Position numbers and translations under genes: made by a program
Notes under the pieces: model-generated
Databases searched by the model: none
What the model was told of the DNA's origin: nothing
What the model saw: only the letters and a program-made list of their open reading frames with translations
In this document: positions 15,549 through 44,600 of the stretch, one piece after another
How positions within the stretch are numbered: position 1 is the stretch's first letter
How the letters are laid out: every line of letters starts with the position of its first letter
Source: Diphasiastrum complanatum
Taxonomy: Eukaryota; Streptophyta; Lycopodiopsida; Lycopodiales; Lycopodiaceae
DNA length: 64,000 nucleotides
Direction: 5' to 3'
NCBI GenBank assembly: GCA_029204225.1
Contig: CM055106.1
Coordinates: 19,602,149-19,666,148, forward strand

Positions 15549-15648
15549 GCTTTGATACCACTGCTGAAGTGTGGCTCTGATACCACTCCTGTGGGAGCAG
15601 ACACTAATATCACTCTATGGGCGGAAATAGATATCAGCTTTGATACCA
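15549..15648 (-). promoter_or_regulatory. Cluster of three PBS-like motifs on the minus strand
   Basis: The complements of TGGTATCAAAGC, TGGTATCAGAGCC and TGGTATCAAAGC lie at 15549-15560, 15573-15585 and 15637-15648. Three initiator-Met primer sites in 100 bp suggest nested or duplicated retroelement junctions in minus orientation. Confidence 0.55.
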
Positions 15649-21036: not shown

Positions 21037-21531
21037 TGTCATGCCCATGACTGGTCTCGGGTAGCGTGTCCACGCTAGGGACCAATAGACCAACAACCCG
21101 TAAGTTAATTGTGACTATAAGGGAATTGGGGCCCTTATGTGTACATGGTCATAATTAATGGTTGTAGACCTAAACACATGGTGGTGGAGTTGGTATGAGT
21201 CTATCAATGAGTCAATAGGGAACTGGATGATGTGGCCTTGATAGGCTGCAGAGGTGTCCAGTGAGATGTCACAGTGCACTACTAGTGGTGCATGGGCCTT
21301 GGAGGGTATAAGTATACCTGCTGGGCTCTCACTAGCGCATGCTTGATTTGTGATGAGTAGTTACATGCTGCTGGTGTGACTCCTCTTTCCATGACTCTGA
21401 TTGATCCATAGCTTAGGGGCTAGATGCGTACGATCTAGGTCTAGTTGGGTTGGTTTAACCTCCACCGGTTCCCATGTGTTGTTGCTTTGTATGGTATGCT
21501 TAGGCTAGAATCATGTTGTGAGGACTTTATA
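21037..21531 (+). repeat. 5' LTR of the chromovirus
   Basis: This 495-bp LTR starts TGTCATGCCC, a common plant gypsy LTR start, and ends GGACTTTATA. It contains GGTATAAGTATACC near 21305-21318, a TATA-like palindrome. It carries 11 bp (near 21500-21510) that are absent from the 3' copy. Confidence 0.88.
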
Positions 21532-21532
21532 T

Positions 21533-21545
21533 TGGTATCAGAGCC
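21533..21545 (+). promoter_or_regulatory. Primer-binding site of the chromovirus
   Basis: TGGTATCAGAGCC lies one base after the 5' LTR and matches the 3' end of initiator Met-tRNA. Confidence 0.85.
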
Positions 21546-21842
21546 AGTCTAAGCAGGATTTACCATCGAAAGTGCTGGGTGGAAATCTCGACGTTTTCTC
21601 GAGAATCCGAGACAGAGTAAGCAACAAACGGTGGAATTGTGGGATTTTCTTCCCGTTGGAAATATTTTTGAATTGCAATCGATTGTGTGGTAAGTGCACT
21701 ACCGGGCTCACAATTGGTTCGTTTTTGTGCTTTTCGAATTAGTTTCTTGGAAGGAATTCTGTGTCAATTTTGTTGTTGCCAATTACTCTGTGGTTACCAT
21801 TTTTGTGAAAGCAACAGTTACTTTTTTGGTTGGCTGGTTTTT

Positions 21843-22500
21843 TCCCTTTAGTTTCTTGTTGGATGATCTCATAAATCGATTGAATGGAGCTAAATACTTC
21901 ACAAAAATTGATGTACGTACGTGATACCATCAGATTAGGATACATCCGGAAGATGTATCTAAAACCGGTTTTAGGACCAGGTTCGGCCACTACGAGTTTC
22001 TTGTTTTGCCCTTTGGTTTGACAAATGCTCTGGCTACTTTCCAACAAAAGATGAACGATTTATTTCGTCCATATTTGGGGAAGTTTGTAGTAGTGCTTCT
22101 GGACGATATTCTAATCTATAGCAGAACACTCAAAGAGCATGCTAAACATCTTCGTACTGTCTTACGTATTTTAAGACAAGAGAAGCTTTATGCAAAAGAA
22201 TCAAAGTGCGAATTCTTTAAAAAGGAGCTTCTTTACCTAGGTCATAAGATCACCTCCTTTGGGATCAAGATTGACGAAGAAAAGGTGAAGACGGTAGTGG
22301 AATGGCCAAGAACTTAAGTCATTTTTAGGTTTCATTGTGTTTTTTCGTAGATTTGCAAAGGAGTACTCGAAGATTGTTGCGCCTCTCAACAATATGTTGA
22401 AAGGAGTGAAAAGCCGCAAAGGTAGGCCAAGTCCTCCTATTAGATGGAATGAGAAATAAGATGAGAGTTTTCGCAAACTCAAGCTTCTAATTGCCTCAGC
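21843..22500 (+). pseudogene. Chromovirus reverse transcriptase, broken
   Basis: RT is recognisable from LLDDLINRLNGAKYFTKID through YHQIRI, a PFGLTNALATFQ motif and the catalytic box VVVLLDDILIYS. The thumb region KCEFFKKELLYLGH follows. A TGA stop replaces the residue before YHQIR at about 21922, a frame change occurs at about 22317 and another stop sits at about 22455. The N-terminal third of RT, protease and gag are absent upstream. Confidence 0.88.
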
Positions 22501-22507
22501 TCCAGTT

Positions 22508-22981
22508 TTGAGGATAACGGATCCAGATTTGTCGTTCGTCATTAACACTGACGCGAGTGATACGGCTATTGGAGTTGTTCTCTTACAGGAGGGTCAGCCC
22601 GTTGCCTTTGAGAGTAAGAAACTAACCGATGCACAGGTCAGGTACACCACTAAGGAAAAAGAACTTTTTGCAGTGATCCATGCATTGAAATCATGGAGGC
22701 ATTACCTGTACGGTAATAAATTCGTAGTTAATACAGATCATCAACCTTTAAAGTATTTCTATAATCAGAATGATTTGCGAGGTCGTAAGGCCAGATGGGC
22801 AGAACTTATGCAAGAATTTGACTTTGACGTGCGGTATATCAAGGGCTCATCTAATCAGATGGCTGATGCACTTAGTCGAATTGGTGAAGTGAACGAACTT
22901 TCCTTCACTGAGATCAGTATAGACTTTTATCTCTCTCTGAGAGGTCTTTATGAGAAAGACCCACATTTTGGACCAATCTAG
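22508..22981 (+). pseudogene. Chromovirus RNase H domain
   Basis: A 157-residue frame contains the gypsy RNase H motifs FVINTDASDTAIGVVLLQ, then TTKEKELFAVIHALKSWRHY, then NTDHQPLKYF and KGSSNQMADALSR. The domain itself is intact, but it has lost continuity with RT upstream and ends in a stop (TAG at 22979-22981) before integrase. Confidence 0.88.
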
Positions 22982-23085
22982 AATAGGGTTCTAGCAGTTT
23001 CATCAAGCGGGACTGATGATCATAGTGATCAGTCTGGGAGGAAGATATAAAGGGTACTGATGACTTCTCTATCCGTAATGGACTT

Positions 23086-23835
23086 TTGTTCAGGAAAGGG
23101 AAGGTTTGTGTGCCTGATGTGGATGTTGTTAAGAATAAAATTCTTTATGACTGTCATGACTCACCATGCGTAGGACATCCCGGCATACATCCTCGTACAT
23201 TGGATTTGGTACGAAGGGATTTTTATTGCCCAAAACTCAAACCCTTTGTAGAATCTTATGTGGTCAAATGTGACCAATGCCAGTTGAATAAAGCTGAATG
23301 TCATAAGGCTGGCGGTTTGTTGCATCCACTGGATATCTCTGATAAGAAATGGGATAGTATTTCCATGGATTTCGTGGTTGAGTTACCGTGGACGAATAAA
23401 CAACATGATGCAATTTGGGTTGTGGTCAACCATCTTACCAAATTGGCTACGTTTATTTTAGTAAAGACCACCGCGAAGGCTTCTGATTTAGCTCAGATAT
23501 TTGTAGAGCGTCTGTTTAGGCTTTACGGATTACCAAGTGATATTGTGAGCGATCGTGATCCGAAATTCATCGGTCACTTTTGGTCGGCCGTGTTTGCTAA
23601 ACTAGAGACGACACTGAGTTTGGGTTCTTCTGATCATCTTGAGACGGATGGACAGACGGAAAGAACAAATCAGACAACGGAACAAATGCTTCGGGCATAT
23701 GTTTCCAGACGACAATCTGATTGAGAAAAGTACCTTCTAGTTTGCCTATAATACTGTAAGCATTCAGCTACCGGTTATAGCCCGTTTATGTTTATGTACG
23801 GTTTCGAGCCTAGGTCACACATCGCGGTTGAGACT
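23086..23835 (+). pseudogene. Chromovirus integrase, zinc-binding and catalytic core
   Basis: The N-terminal HHCC zinc finger is visible (H at HDSPCVGH, pair CDQC), then the DDE core: D in SISMDFVVELP, D in DIVSDRDPKFIGHFW and E in ETDGQTERTNQTTEQ. A stop ends the frame after VSRRQSD. Homologous sequence continues in shifted frames (about 23745-23855) toward the C-terminal part. Confidence 0.88.
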
Positions 23836-23859
23836 CGAACGATCAAGTTTTAGAAAGTA

Positions 23860-24408
23860 GTGGATTTCCTACACGATATGCAGGAAATGCTACGGATTGC
23901 ACGTGAAAATGTCCAGAGTGCCCAGGATAGGAATAGACATTATGCAAATCTGAAAAGATCACCGAGAGACTTCCAAGTAGGAGATTGGATATATTTGAGA
24001 ATCCCGAAGGATTCAAGTGTAATGCGTACCGGCAAGTATTATAAGTTGTCCCCTAGATATAGAGGATTGTTTAAGGTCTTGAAAAAGATCGGATCCTTAG
24101 CTTACCAATTGGAACTCCCCGAAGGATCGCAAGTGCATCCCGTATTTCACGTTAGTCGTCTCAAAAAGAGTCTACGTGAAGGAGAGCATCTTGGATTTGG
24201 AGATCAGTTGGACCTGTTGGATGAATCATCGAGTGTATCTCGTCTTGAACCCGAAAAGATCTTGGATACAAGAACTAAACGATTGAGAAATCGTATAGTT
24301 ACCGAGCATCTGGTTCGATGGAGGGGATGTACGGACGATGATGATTCCTGGGAACAGGAAAGAAACTTAAGGAGAAACTTTCCCAGTTTTAAGTTCTTGA
24401 GGACATGA
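23860..24408 (+). pseudogene. Chromovirus integrase C-terminus with chromodomain
   Basis: A 182-residue frame covers the integrase GPY/F-like region (DFQVGDWIYLRIP, then LSPRYRGLFKVLKKIGSLAY and HPVFHVSRLKKS). A chromodomain follows: PEKILDTRTKRLRNRIVTEH, then LVRWRGCTDDDDSWEQERNL. The chromodomain is the hallmark of chromoviruses and directs integration to modified chromatin. The reading frame runs right into the 3' LTR sequence, leaving no room for a polypurine tract. Confidence 0.9.
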
Positions 24409-24878
24409 CTGGTCTCGGGTAGCGTGTCCACGCTAGGGACCAATAGACCAACAACCCGTAAGTTAATTGTGACTATAAGAGAATTGGGGCCCTTATGTGT
24501 ACATGGTCATAATTAATGGTTGTAGGCCTAAACACATGGTGGTGGAGTTGGTATGGGTTTATCAATGAGTCAATAGGGAACTGGATGACGTGGCCTTGAT
24601 AGGCTGCAGAGGTGTCCAGTGAGATGTCACAGTGCACTACTAGTGGTGCATGGGCCTTGGAGGGTATAAGTATACCTGCTGGGCTCTCACTAGCGCATGC
24701 TTGATTTGTGATGAGTAGCTACATGCTGCTGGTGTGACTCCTCTTTCCATGACTCTGATTGATCCATAGCTTGGGGGCTAGATCCGTACGATCTAGGTTT
24801 AGTTGGGTTGGTTTAACCTCCACCGGTTCCCATGTGTTGTTGCTTTGTATGGTATGCTCATGTTGTGAGGACTTTATA
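24404..24878 (+). repeat. 3' LTR of the chromovirus, lacking its first bases
   Basis: Aligns to the 5' LTR from its tenth base (CATGACTGGTCTCGGG) to the common end GGACTTTATA. The first nine bases (TGTCATGCC) and a recognisable polypurine tract are missing, which suggests a small deletion at the junction with the coding region. Confidence 0.85.
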
Positions 24879-31363: not shown

Positions 31364-31460
31364 ATGCTGCCAGGTGCTGCAATAATCTCGATCCTCTGTT
31401 TTCCTATCTTTCTTTGAGGATCAAATGCTTGTTTTTGGAGAATTTACATTTTTCCAATGA
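31364..31460 (+). promoter_or_regulatory. Two upstream ORFs before the PWP2 start
   Basis: uORF1 runs from the ATG at 31364 to TGA at 31415-31417 (17 codons). uORF2 runs from the ATG at 31425 to TGA at 31458-31460 (11 codons). Its stop overlaps the main start as ATGA. If this region is in the mRNA leader, both would precede the main frame and could limit translation. Transcript start and leader splicing are unknown. Confidence 0.45.
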
Positions 31461-33196
31461 ATTTTAAGTTCAGCAATCTGCTGGGCGCTCCCTACAGGGG
31501 AGGCAACGTCCTCATAGTCGGGGATTCCTTGCTGCTCTCGCCTGTTGGCAACAGAATCTCAGCAACAGATCTGGTAAAGTCAGAAAGCTTTACTTTACCC
31601 TCTCAAAACTCTAAGAATATCACCAAGATTGCTGTCTCCCCTAATGGAGCCTTCCTTCTTTCCATAGATGAAGATGGTAGGAGCTTGCTCATCAACCTAC
31701 CACGCCGCGTAGTTCTTCATCACTTCACATTCAAAGGACCTGTTTCTGCTGTCAAATTCAGCCCAAATGGGAGTTTCTTTGCTACTGGAGTGGGAAAGCT
31801 TCTCCAGATCTGGCAGACCCCAGGATTCAAAATGGAATTCACTCCCTTTCAGCTATTTAAAACTTATGGTGGTTGCCATGACACCATCACTGCCCTGGAT
31901 TGGAGTCCTGATAGCCATTGGATCATAGTCGGGTGTAAAGATCTGACTGCCAGAGTGTATTCGATCCAAAATCTTGTCGGGTATCATCCGATTACTCTCA
32001 CAGGGCATCGAAATACGCCGATTGGAGTGTATTTTAGTTCAGAGAAAGTGGGAAAAGACAAAGACAAAGTGACAGGGGCATACACCATTTCCAAAGATGG
32101 GGCGATTTTCAGCTGGAAGTTTCGTTTATCAGAACTGAGTACACTAACTAAGGACGTTTCTTTGGTGGGCACAGAGGCTGTGGCTGATCCTTCCAGGCAA
32201 ACTAGGCCTTTGCAAGCTGTTGCTAATAAGCCAGTGAGGTCCCTTCATGGGGGAAATAAACTTGAAGGCGTAGTGGAAGACGAAGATGACGATTTCACTG
32301 TACTCTTGGATCCAGTACAACCTTCAGAGGGTATCACGGGAGCTGATTCGAATCTGGTGAGTCATCCAACAATCCTTTCCAGCTCAGGTCCCTCACCAGC
32401 AAAATCTGTTACCAAGAAAAAACATAAGACAGAACCAGAGAATACCGAGGCTATGATAAAGGACTCTCAAGTTGGAGGTCAGAAGATCAGAAATGACGGG
32501 GATCTAAGCAGTGCTAAAAATTGGGAGCCTAAAGGCGGTGAATCTCAAAATGAAGCATCACTGCAGGATTTTCAGAATAACGCTCAAAATGGCACAAACA
32601 GGGAGGAACATGAAGATGGTGATGGGAAGCAAGAGGACAGGCGCTCTATTGCTGCTTTTGAAGGAGAACTCATCCAGACAGGTGGAAAAAGGAAAAGGAG
32701 CAAGCAAACTGAGGAAAGCCATGGATATGAGGACAAGATGGAGCCAGATGACGAGACGATGTTGCAAACTACTGGAGTAGTTGGTGCAAAAGCAGCAACC
32801 AACTACACTATCAGACCTGATGCTGGAAAATGGGAACTTGTTAAGAAGCACTTCTTTATGCAAAATGCAAAGCTTACCGCTTGTGATTATCACAAGTCTC
32901 TCAGTATAGTGGTTGCGGGATTCTCAACTGGTATCTTTGGTCTCTATCAAATGCCTGATTTTTCATGTATTCATCTATTGTCCATATCGCGAACTAGCAT
33001 CACAACAACCACATTTAATGATTTTGGGAACTGGCTGGTATTTGGATGCGCGAAGCTAGGTCAGTTACTTGTTTGGGAATGGCAGTCTGAGACTTACATA
33101 CTTAAGCAACAGGGTCACTACTTTGACGTGAATTGTGTTGCCTACTCCCCTGATTCACAACTAATTGCTACTGGAGCTGACGACAACAAACTAAAG
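31457..33196 (+). CDS. PWP2: PWP2 exon 1
   Basis: Codes for residues 1-580: the first WD40 propeller, the acidic linker (about 225-455, with basic patches KKKHK and KRKRSK as possible nuclear signals), and the start of the second propeller up to TGADDNKLK. Donor is AAG|GTTTGC. The frame stays open for 22 more codons into the intron, which is why a naive prediction overruns. Confidence 0.95.
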
Positions 33197-36100
33197 GTTT
33201 GCTTCACCTTTTTTACCCCTAATTCCTCAGCATCAACTATGTATCAGTTGGACATGAAATAAATTTTAACGTGTCCTGTTCCCTTTCTATTGGCCGATTT
33301 CTTTTGGAAAACAGTGTTTTATATGGTATTCTGTGAAAGTTTCTCCTTGGTTTAGGTTTTGTGACCATGATATGTTGAGAGAATATGAACAAGATAAATA
33401 ATGACAAGGGACACAAATTCGTGCAAATGCAAGGCACAACACTAAGGAGTCAAGCTGGGACTCTTCTAGCACACATAGCTCTTACACGGTCTCATAATGA
33501 CTGAATTTCTACCTCACAGCTGGTTTTTTTCACAGAATGTCCATAGTTATCTTTGGAATGACAATTTGTAGCACATTGATAGCTTCACAAGGGCCACTCC
33601 TTCCCAACAATGACACCTTGCTCATGAATCTTGGGTGGCCTAAGCTTTCATGAACAAGATGTGACAATAGGCAATAGGCAGTGCCACAAGAAGTATCAAT
33701 TGTCTCCAATGTAAGATGGCTATTTCCTTGTCTAGTGTGTACACTTCTTTCTTACCATGTTCCCACAATAGCAATTTGGCGTTCATAAAAGCTGCCTCCT
33801 TTACCCATGCTTTGATGCTCTCAATGTCTCTGATCCCAATAGCCAATCACTTTCACATAGCTTCTCACCCCTCTAGTTCCTCCACATTGTTTTCACGCTT
33901 GTCCAAATAGTAAGGAATATAATCCTTCTTCCTTTTCTTTTTGCATGGTCTTTTTTTGGAATCTCCTTGGCTTGACTTGTGCTATTTTTTCTTGCATGAT
34001 GAAATATTTTCGTGGTGATTATTGTATAGCAAGGTACAACTTATAGCAAGATTCCAAGGTCTAAAACATTGAGGCCATTAACCATCCATTTTCTTGCATG
34101 TACCTCAGTTCATCGTATCTTACAAACAATCAAATCCATTTGGCCATGTCAAATAATTGAACCTCATTCGATATTAAACCTCAATAGAATCCAATTTGTT
34201 TTGAGAATCAAAGAGTCTAGTTCTTATAGAATAAATTACATGAGCCCCAAGCTTTTTGGGGCCACTACCATGCGCTAGATTACAAGACAATTGTTCTTCT
34301 TGAATTCATTCCTAGCTTTGACAGACTAGGTTATTTTCGATATTTCTTGATAATTGGCTGTGAACATTTCTTAAACATGTGTTAAAAAAATAAGAACTTT
34401 TCCAAAAATAAGAAAGCTATGTACAAGTGGGTGTATTTGTTGAAGATGATCCCATCATCTTTTTGAGAGTCATGACAATGACCCTATCATCATCTTGGGT
34501 CTTGGTCCCCTACTAATTATCATATTAGATCCATGTGACTTGCTCCTACTATTGGGCCTTGATGAAGTGTGTCAGAATCTCTTGGCATTCGGTCTGCACT
34601 ATGCATGATGAAGTTGGTGGTCTTAGACTTTGTGGGTGGATTGCATGTTAGAAATCCATAAATCATAATATGGATGGACAAACTAGGATTCGAACCCAGG
34701 ACCTCCCTCATACCAGATGGGATGCTCTACCACTGAGCTGTCCGCCCTGTTTGATAGTTCTCTCTAGAGTGTGGATTGATATTCCAACACCCCCCCTCAA
34801 GCCACACTTGGTTGGGGTCCTAGTTGTCACTTGCCCCACAACTTGGGCCACCTAACCATGGCTTTGACACCATGAATTGTTAGGTCTAACTTGGCTTTGA
34901 TACCATGTTAGAAATCCATAAATCATAATATGGATGGACAGACTAGGATTCGAACCCAGGACCTCCCTCATACCGGATGGGATGCTCTACCACTGAGCTA
35001 TCCACCCTGTTTGATAGTTCTCTCTAGAGTGTGGATTGATATTCCAACAGATTGCATAAGATTTAAGATTTCGCATCTCCTTTGTTACGTCATCTACTAT
35101 CCTTCACTTAAAATCCATATATATATAGAGTAAGTAATTTTTTTCCAGCTTTATTCAGCTTTAGTGTAGTAGCAACTTGTGTTATAAGCTATTATCTTTT
35201 AGCAAAGTACAATTTATTTGTAGTAACTCTCTAGAGTTTGTGTGTTGTTTTGAGCAAAACTTTGATAGAAGAGCATCCATTTGGGTGCTAGTTTCTTATT
35301 CGATTGGATCTTTATTGAAAGTGGCATTACATTATACCTTTTGTGGATACGATTGGTGGACCAAAACAAGGGAAAGTGAGCTCATATTTCAAATGTCCAG
35401 CATAAATTTCTTTACAATGATTGAAATCCAAGTCCAATTTGCAGAGGCTTGCCAGAATCAAATTGTTGTAAGAGAAACATAGTTTTTCTTCGATAGTTTG
35501 CTAGAAAACCTAAATCCGTAAATTTTTATTTTCGTGTCTTGGTCGAAGTTGGCTTTTTCAACTGCTTGACAATGAGTTAGTATATGAAGCATGTACTGAA
35601 AGGCGCCATACAAGAGGAATTTGTTGCACTAGATATAACGTCAACCCAACTTTCACAACTTATTATTACAACGTCAAATTTTGGCCAAAACGTGGGGGGT
35701 TTTATTTTGATACTAAACAATGTTGTGTTTCACATTTGATTGGAAAATCATTACGAAGTTGTCTACATCATTCATTATAAAACAACAAAGTTTGTTTCAA
35801 TTGCAAGATATTTTTGTTTGATGCATATTTACATATTTTGTCCATTGTGAACATCCTACAAGACCTATTCGCTCATCAATTAGAATAGTGTACACGAAGA
35901 TATAAAAAAGTTAAATATGGTCAAGATAGGGAAGATGTTTTTCCACACAAGAAACATTCTGCTTGAGAGAACATTTTGATCTACACATTGGGTTATTCTG
36001 CCCATTTTGAATACTTTGCAACACTTGTTTGTATGTCAATCAGGGCAGTCTATGTTAAGATAATCCACAAACAATAATGGTCAATGCAATTTAGATGCGT

Positions 36101-41645: not shown

Positions 41646-44600
41646 TGACTTTTTTTGTTTTTTCTTATGCTTAATAGGTGTGGAATAGTGCCTCAGGTTT
41701 TTGTTTTGTAACATTCTCTGAACATACAAATGCTGTCACAGCAGTTTTATTTCTTCCTGGAAATCATGCTGTGCTAAGTGCTTCATTGGATGGCACTGTG
41801 CGTGCTTGGGATCTCATGCGATATCGTAATTTTCGGACATTTACAACTCCGTCACCAACGCAGTTTGTATCATTGGCTGCTGATCAGAGTGGGGAGGTGA
41901 TTTGTGCAGGAACTCTGGATTCCTTTCAGGTTTGAGATTTTTGTATTGAGTTTACATATAATATCTGCACTGGGCAGGGTACTGTTTGGGTTTTCCAACA
42001 AATACACTTTTGAATTGAATAGCTTATAGTGCGAAAGGGTGATATCTGCTCCATATTTCACATAATCAAAATTAATTTTGACAATCTACTGGTCTATATA
42101 TAATCAAAGAATTTGGCTGGCTGCTATGTTTGGTTTAATTGTAGATCTTAGACTTACTCTTTCAATTGGTTTTGGCAGATATATGTCTGGGCGATGAAGA
42201 CGGGACGATTGCTTGAAGTGTTAAGTGGTCATGAAGGTCCTGTTCATGGACTTGTGTTCTCTCCTACCCATGTATGAGTTTATCTGCTTAACCTTCTGGT
42301 TGTGGTTTTAATCAGAAGATCAAAGGGTTATATCTATTATGTATTCCTTGCATCTAGTTTGTTATTGGCTGGTTCCACGCCTATCAAAGATATAGTAACA
42401 CTGAATTTCAGAAGATGTCAATGCTTGACCTAAATTTCTGTCACTAAGGATAAAATTTGCAGCTGGCATATAGTGCTTGTTTGTCCATTTGTTTATTCGT
42501 AGAGGTCTATAAAGTCATATGATTTTTGTTCTTTTTTGGAATTTTGCCAGGAGATGCTTGCATCATCATCTTGGGATAAGACTGTCCGGCTATGGGATGT
42601 CTTTGAAGGAAAAGGAGGAGTAGAAACTTTTACCCACACGCATGATGTCCTGACTGTTTCATATCGTCCTGATGGCAAGCAGCTTGCATCGACGACACTC
42701 GAAGGGCATATCCATTTTTGGGATCCATTTGAAGGTCAGCTAATGGGCACAATAGAGGGGCGTCGAGATATTGCAGGGGGGAGATTGATGAGTGATCGCC
42801 GAACTGCAGCAAACTCAAGCTCTGGGAAATGCTTTACGACCATTTGTTACTCTGCAGATGGCGGTTACCTTATTGCAGGGGGTACCAGCAAGTATATTTG
42901 CATGTATGATGTTATAGAGCAGGTTTGTATATGTTGAACTAATGCAATATTATGGCCCTTTTGTTATGTGGTCTCTTCTTAGTTGTCAGCATTGTGAGAG
43001 ATTTTTTTAAGAGTGATAAGGATGATCATCACTGTAAGAATGTTGACATCAGAATTTTTGTCATTCATTTCTTTTGTTTTATATTGCTTACTATTATATG
43101 GACTTTTGGCACTCTCAGGCTAAGCCACGGACTTGCTTCTTTGGTTTGGTTGGACTCTAGAGAGTTCTAGGTCCGATTGTTGTCCTCTTGGGAATTCCCA
43201 TTAGGGTTTCCCAGAACGCAGCTATTTTTATTTTTATTTTTTTTGTTTTTTTTGTGGTTTTGATTAGTTCTAGTGCTTCGCAGAATTTTTTAGGTTTATT
43301 TATTTTTATTTAAGTTGTGTTTTTTTTTCGGACTTTTTAGTTAGAACAATCTTTGCCTACCTTAAAGAGCCAAGATGGAAAAGTATCAAGATCAGGCTGG
43401 AGGAGAGAAACCAAGGTGCATAAGCAACAAGGCACGAAGTGGACCACAAAGTGGGCAATCAAACGATAAATCCTTTCGCTCAGAGAGCCTTGATACCTGT
43501 GCGGAACTGATCAAATCTGGAGCTCAGGGAGCTCAACACAAAGTGCGTCAAGGACAAATCAGGAGCTCAAAGGAGTTCCAAAGTCGAAAGTCAGAAGCGG
43601 CAGGGACGAACATTTCAAAGAAAGGCCTCTGCCACGAGTTAATAAGGTCCTTGGGTTTTACGAAAGCGATATAAAACCTACGCTTTTCCCAGACAGAGAT
43701 ATATTTTAAGTTATGTAATTTTTCAGAAAAAAACATTTCGTATAGCGTTCCACCGTTTGGAACGCCGGCATTTCAGAACGAGTGTTCTGGACAGCGACGT
43801 TCTGGAAAGTGAAACGGCGTCTGGAATGCTTTTTATTTTTATTTCTATTTTTCTAAATAAAACATTAGAAAACCACATAAGAACAGGTTTGAACACTCAA
43901 ATCAAAATTTTTGTAAGCCTAAAAAAAAACCTGCAAGCAGTAGAACTAATCAAAATCTCAAAAAACAAAACAAAAAGAAAAAAGGTAGCAATGTTCTGGG
44001 TAACCGTAATTTGTCGTAAAACGTGGGGATGACTGGCAGCGGAAGCTTGAGCGTAGGCGTGTAGGAACGGAGACGCAACAGTTAGCAGCAGAGATATTCA
44101 AGATGAATCATTTATACAAAATTGCGCAAATGAACAATACAATAGTGAGACAAAAATTGCACTCTGATTAATATCAATAGCGAGTACAATGGCTTGAAGT
44201 GATAACTTCAGCTTGCTGAGCGTGATAACGGTGGCTACAGAAGAATTTTGATTATAATGTTAAAACAACACTTACATTGCTTGATTCAGCTAGCAGTATA
44301 TATTTACAAGTGTCTTCAAAAAATATCTTACAAGCATTGAATGCTATGTACGCCAGTCTTTGTATATGTGCAAAGTGGGTAACCGCCCTTGGGATATTTA
44401 GCGGTCCAACTGTTTTTAGGGTTGATGATAAGTTGGCGACGTCGGTCTGCCACTGTTGGAGAAACCTGAAAAACGCGAAGGTGCCCTTGAACAGAGAAAG
44501 CACGTAAATCCCGAAGGTGCCTTTAAAGCGAAGGCAGAGAAATGCGAAAAACCTGACAGTGCCTTTAAATTGAAATTTGGTCACAGTGTCGCATTTTTCC

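Follow-up and report, generated by a model that had tools for sequence, protein, structure and literature searches.

The 404-bp element at positions 34646–35049 of the window (the whole 64,000-nucleotide stretch of Diphasiastrum complanatum DNA that was analyzed) is a TRIM with a tRNA-like unit in each LTR, and we are confident that it belongs to a high-copy Helenus-type family of this clubmoss that spreads by the mechanism proposed below. The component claims carry different weight. The identity as a Helenus-type TRIM is close to certain and mobilization in trans by an LTR retrotransposon is very probable, while the balance leans only slightly toward use of the tRNA-like unit as an RNA polymerase III (Pol III) promoter. 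This kind of element is already known as Helenus, and the clubmoss families are a new plant example of it. New features are the Lycopodiaceae host, the large number of copies, and the presence in the same genome of another, probably related family whose LTR is 153 bp long.

Results

Structure and setting of the element

Direct-repeat and LTR analysis delimits a complete TRIM, 404 bp long and oriented on the minus strand. Two direct 144-bp LTRs that are 140/144 identical (97%) enclose a 116-bp interior, and ARAGORN and Rfam both recognize the tRNA-like unit in each LTR, as the preliminary description had proposed; the PBS, PPT, and TG/CA ends that it reported are likewise present. The LTR has the form TGTTGG...CTAACA. 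The four differences between the two LTRs are all transitions, and each falls at a CG or CHG site if read as C to T. The interior is non-coding and the longest stop-to-stop frames within the element are short. One frame of the element, used as a protein query, returned no match, and a 24-mer of the LTR had 0 matches among viral contigs. On the minus strand the order is 5′ LTR, PBS, PPT, 3′ LTR, and the features are as follows.

34646–35049, minus strand: complete TRIM of family 1, 404 bp (repeat analysis and relatives)
35050–35056, no strand: right flanking repeat GATTGCA (flank comparison)
34906–35049, minus strand: 5′ LTR, 144 bp, TGTTGG...CTAACA (LTR comparison)
34935–35007, minus strand: tRNA-like unit of the 5′ LTR, 73 nt, called tRNA-Thr(ggt) (ARAGORN, Rfam, cloverleaf)
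34990–35000, minus strand: A box TAGCTCAGTGG of the 5′ LTR (box match)
34946–34956, minus strand: B box GGTTCGAATCC of the 5′ LTR (box match)
34790–34905, minus strand: non-coding interior, 116 bp (frames and relatives)
34893–34905, minus strand: PBS TGGTATCAAAGCC, adjoining the 5′ LTR; TGGTATCAGAGCC in most relatives
34861–34872, minus strand: inner second PBS-like copy TGGTGTCAAAGC, aligned with the family 2 PBS position
34790–34798, minus strand: PPT GAGGGGGGG, adjoining the 3′ LTR
34646–34789, minus strand: 3′ LTR, 144 bp, with four transitions relative to the 5′ LTR
34675–34747, minus strand: tRNA-like unit of the 3′ LTR, 73 nt (ARAGORN, Rfam)
34730–34740, minus strand: A box CAGCTCAGTGG of the 3′ LTR, first base altered (box match)
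34686–34696, minus strand: B box GGTTCGAATCC of the 3′ LTR (box match)
34639–34645, no strand: left flanking repeat GATTGCA, either a 5-bp TSD plus CA or a 7-bp TSD

The flanking direct repeat was initially taken to be intact, and the 7-bp GATTGCA is indeed found on both sides. The likelier reading of these bases is a 5-bp TSD, GATTG (34639–34643 and 35050–35054), followed by CA at 34644–34645, because the relatives of the element mostly have 5-bp TSDs (21/30). The first two bases of the PBS are complementary to this CA. The alternative is a 7-bp TSD, GATTGCA, and a single copy cannot separate the two. The two PBS-like copies of the interior lie 33 bp apart (34861–34905).

A 601-amino acid open reading frame at 31457–33262 has 98% identity over 99% of its length to a Diphasiastrum complanatum protein and belongs to a PWP2-type gene. 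Exons of this gene lie at 31457–33238, 41678–41932, 42173–42271, and 42548–42934, and these positions put the TRIM antisense within an intron of ~8.4 kb. Elsewhere in the window, three PBS-like strings occur within 90 bp at 15560–15648 (minus strand), and no LTR pair was found nearby. A Gypsy-type LTR retrotransposon at 21046–24878 has LTRs that are 96% identical and a PBS, TGGTATCAGAGC, at 21533. It was considered as a partner of the TRIM and rejected; the LTRs differ and nothing supports the pairing.

The tRNA-like unit

ARAGORN calls a tRNA-Thr(ggt) in each LTR of the window element with a length of 73 nt, which corrects the 77 nt given earlier. A scan of the whole window with the Rfam tRNA model scored the 5′ LTR unit at 47.7 bits (E = 4.4e-07) and the 3′ LTR unit at 43.4 bits (E = 6.4e-06). 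The B box is exact in both LTRs and lies 44 bases after the A box; the A box, which had also been assigned to both LTRs, is exact in the 5′ LTR alone. The 21-base A-box promoter core had two matches in the window at up to three mismatches and 0 in 100 shuffles. Two flaws mark the cloverleaf: the anticodon stem contains an A·A mismatch, and one base too many is present at position 26. In the 5′ LTR, position 33 of the unit is C, where U is expected in tRNAs (the U33 rule). One relative (locus L035, ~1449) has an LTR from which the anticodon arm is deleted and in which the A and B boxes are retained.

The tRNA-Thr(ggt) call recurs in 58 of the 61 LTR units called across 30 loci. Host tRNA matches score higher: 60/63 reach at least 59.3 bits, compared with 43–48 bits for the LTR units, the 63 being the top slice of 84,948 first-look candidates. 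Among 20 host tRNAs fetched, the nearest to the LTR unit are Thr(ggt) and Cys(gca), tied at 50/73 identities, so that no single donor is picked out in this set; genuine tRNA pairs have a median of 43 identities. Derivation of the unit by capture of a tRNA or a SINE into an LTR is plausible. Self-priming by the 3′ end of the tRNA-like unit was rejected, since just 6–8 of 16 positions match the PBS.

Family 1 copies in the genome

The genome searched comprises 1.745 Gb, and the window was located on its contig C15. The 40 LTR matches that were scored, of 1537 first-look candidates, are all full length at 98–100% identity; a search with the interior scored 40 of 1129 candidates. The exact string joining the LTR end to the PBS occurs 518 times genome-wide (270 + 248) and the reversed-pattern control 0 times. 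A B box followed after 20–50 bases by the PBS occurs at 618 places genome-wide (292 + 326; control 0), and both TRIM families described here occur among the matches listed. On contigs C1 and C2, inspection by eye shows the B-box consensus to be intact as well at 45 of 54 exact family 1 junctions.

Insertion sites were compared in 41 distinct copies with complete outer ends, a set from which 13 incomplete pieces and 5 loci duplicating an insertion already counted had been removed; the fetched loci were chosen by likeness to the window copy, and old copies are under-represented among them. The 30 single LTR-interior-LTR copies comprise 21 with an exact 5-bp TSD, one with 4 bp, one with 7 bp (the window copy), and seven with none. 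One of five lone LTRs has a 5-bp TSD, a single LTR-interior-LTR-LTR copy has no TSD, and four of five longer arrays, with up to five LTRs, have 5-bp TSDs. These data bear out the expectation of complete copies at varied flanks. Tandem LTR arrays with shared interiors were observed at L031 (1501–2683), L039 (844–2020), L035, L042, and L045.

The PBS TGGTATCAGAGCC starts 24 of 31 family 1 interiors, and the PBS of the window copy differs from it by one change. Divergence between paired LTRs in 20 copies ranges from 0.007 to 0.051 (K2P; median 0.021), a set that counts the duplicated insertion L025/L026 twice. The transitions between paired LTRs fall at CG or CHG sites in 38 of 51 cases, as in methylated, decaying repeats. 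The same insertion was found at two places in four pairs of loci (L025/L026, L047/L048, L035/L043, and L036/L040), which are either duplicated segments or assembly duplicates. At L093 a direct repeat of at least 245 bp (288–532 and 1757–2001; spacing 1469 bp) contains a family 1-like LTR; PBS-like strings occur on both sides, and the repeat may be part of a larger element.

A second, probably related family

A second tRNA-bearing TRIM family was first met in the flank of locus L018 (506–863), and a genome search for it returned 72 matches from 40 scored of 658 first-look candidates. In 20 loci fetched, an LTR pair is present in 15 rows, which by eye represent 8 distinct insertions. Four of these have an exact 5-bp TSD (AGGCA, GTTAG, AACAA, and AGACA) and four do not. 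The copy at L054 has a 153-bp LTR, a 73-bp interior, the PBS TGGTATCAGAGCC, and a PPT. Family 2 was also seen at L053–L072 and at L042 (1761–2109).

The tRNA-like part is the LTR segment best conserved between the families. The tRNA-like units share 59/73 identities (shuffled maximum 42), compared with 29 identities over 42/53 nt in the part before the unit (shuffled maximum 29) and 15 over 29/28 nt in the tail (shuffled maximum 18). Both families have the same A box, and the B box of each fits GGTTCRANYCY. The interiors align with a score of 40 (shuffled maximum 24), and in this alignment the family 2 PBS falls on the inner PBS-like copy of family 1. Because tRNA-like units and interiors both align above shuffles, a relationship between the two families is more probable than two separate captures.

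Conservation of the boxes and candidate terminators

Base-by-base departure was measured in 60 family 1 LTRs, young copies picked for likeness to the window. Mean departure was 0.018 in the A box, 0.015 in the B box, and 0.022 in the whole unit, compared with 0.006 in LTR positions 1–42 and 0.008 in the tail. Departure was at or below that of the box in 95 of 134 11-base windows for the A box and 77 of 134 for the B box, and no extra conservation of the boxes was seen in these 60 LTRs. The A box is intact in 54, the B box in 50, and both in 45. Set beside the conservation of the unit between families, this gives mixed evidence for selection on a promoter; dead copies decay freely, and the values in young family 1 copies neither prove nor disprove promoter use.

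A TTTT run is absent from the window element and occurs in 1/60 family 1 LTRs and 0/31 interiors; about half of simulated sequences with the dinucleotide make-up of family 1 also have none. Without an internal TTTT, a family 1 Pol III RNA would end in the flank. In family 2 a TTTT run occurs in the LTR tail, after the tRNA-like unit and before the PBS. The run of the 5′ LTR could stop Pol III there; if it were read through, its 3′ LTR counterpart could set the RNA end.

Discussion

Relation to known elements

The preliminary description cited Cassandra as the known precedent for a Pol III gene inside TRIM LTRs. A closer one is Helenus, the name given in 2024 to TRIMs whose LTRs contain tRNA-derived sequence and which were described from fungi, animals, and a single plant (Kojima 2024, PMC10886601), and a 2026 meeting report repeats the finding (PMC12859917). 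The sole plant listed there for Helenus is Selaginella moellendorffii (PMC10886601). The same paper proposes the name TRIMp3 for TRIMs with Pol III promoters, and Pol III transcription of Helenus is its author's inference as well (PMC10886601). Helenus elements are described as TRIMs, mostly shorter than 1 kb, with an A/B-box tRNA-derived sequence in both LTRs, a PBS, and a PPT; they have 5-bp TSDs in plants and fungi, several families per genome, and solo LTRs, and their mobilization is attributed to autonomous Copia or Gypsy elements (PMC10886601). The clubmoss families resemble them in each respect: the element is a non-coding TRIM of less than 1 kb with a tRNA-derived sequence and A/B boxes in both LTRs, a PBS, and a PPT, and it is dispersed in many copies with a 5-bp TSD at the level of the family (7 or 5 + 2 in the window copy). 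Dimensions differ, with an LTR of 120 bp and an interior of 85 bp given for the Selaginella element and LTRs of 144 or 153 bp and interiors of 116 or 73 bp in the clubmoss. Diphasiastrum is a homosporous clubmoss, unlike Selaginella, and its element is likened to Helenus-1_SMo by description, not by sequence.

Cassandra, another plant TRIM, likewise forms tandem arrays and has LTRs that contain the sequence of a Pol III gene (PMC7215508). The Cassandra PBS TGGTATCAGAGC is shared with the clubmoss families, and TGGTATCAGAGCC is the PBS given for Cassandra (PMC7215508). Its LTRs carry 5S rRNA (PMC7215508), whereas those of the clubmoss carry tRNA; no 5S rRNA was detected at the Rfam gathering score, only tRNA. 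The plant TRIMs of Gao et al. 2016 resemble the clubmoss element as small non-coding LTR elements with tandem arrays, and they occur in Selaginella (PMC4717578), but no tRNA sequence is reported in their LTRs and the word tRNA occurs 0 times in the main text (PMC4717578). Searches of the open-licence literature turned up no account of tRNA-bearing TRIMs from Lycopodiaceae.

Alternative explanations

A tandem pair of tRNA-derived SINEs whose likeness to an LTR pair arose by chance would also be short and non-coding and would contain a tRNA-like unit with A and B boxes, and the preliminary description had set this reading against its own. A tRNA-derived SINE inserts alone with its own TSD and has no PBS/PPT interior, whereas in 21 of the 30 distinct single clubmoss copies 5-bp TSDs enclose both LTRs together with the interior. 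Other copies share the PBS, the PPT, and the interior, the exact LTR-PBS junction recurs 518 times against 0 for the reversed pattern, and the LTR end of the window copy has no poly(A) or simple-repeat tail. These observations refute the tandem SINE, which we regard as scarcely credible. Little more credence attaches to the idea that the LTRs carry working tRNA-Thr genes spread by the element. The consistent ARAGORN call (58/61) is what such genes would give, but the anticodon-stem mismatch, the extra base at 26, C33 in the 5′ LTR unit, covariance scores well below those of most scored host tRNAs, and the distance from the closest fetched host tRNAs, with Thr and Cys tied, make a functional tRNA unlikely, and this reading was rejected.

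A far stronger competitor, rated somewhat below an even chance, is that the TRIM is transcribed by Pol II and the tRNA-like unit is a passenger that plays no part in transcription, left by a SINE or tRNA that inserted long ago. The lack of extra box conservation among young family 1 copies, the T4 run that family 2 carries in its LTR tail, and the first base lost in one A box of the window copy all agree with a passenger. Against this, the tRNA-like part is conserved between families far above the LTR parts on either side, with identical A boxes and B boxes of one consensus; a recent common capture could account for that conservation too.

Proposed mechanism

In the mechanism that we favor for the Helenus-type TRIM, Pol III, possibly alongside Pol II, would start in the 5′ LTR, at its tRNA-like unit, and the transcript would read through the interior into the 3′ LTR to give an RNA with terminal redundancy. 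tRNA-iMet would prime reverse transcription at the PBS and the PPT would prime the second strand. An autonomous LTR retrotransposon, probably Copia, would supply the enzymes for copying and for integration with 5-bp TSDs. Copia is a guess based on the 5-bp TSD, the iMet-type PBS, and a fungal Helenus case (PMC10886601). The tRNA-like unit would act as a promoter and not as a working tRNA. A broader scenario, which we consider doubtful, is that one tRNA capture was ancestral to both clubmoss families and the Selaginella Helenus. Lycophytes would then have kept a Pol III-driven, Copia-mobilized TRIM lineage since before the clubmoss/spikemoss split; the tRNA-like promoter would be the core that was kept, and the remaining LTR sequence would have turned over.

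Implications

LTR units called as tRNA-Thr by ARAGORN will inflate the tRNA gene counts of clubmoss annotations. The annotation of Isoetes sinensis includes 8,975 tRNA genes (PMC10541799), a number that could hide tRNA-like repeats of the TRIM-LTR type. Lycopodiaceae become the second plant family in a class whose lone plant in Kojima 2024 was Selaginella (PMC10886601). The two families allow a comparison of the LTR parts that were kept with those that were lost, and with both present in one genome at high copy number, the use of Pol III becomes open to direct test in a plant.
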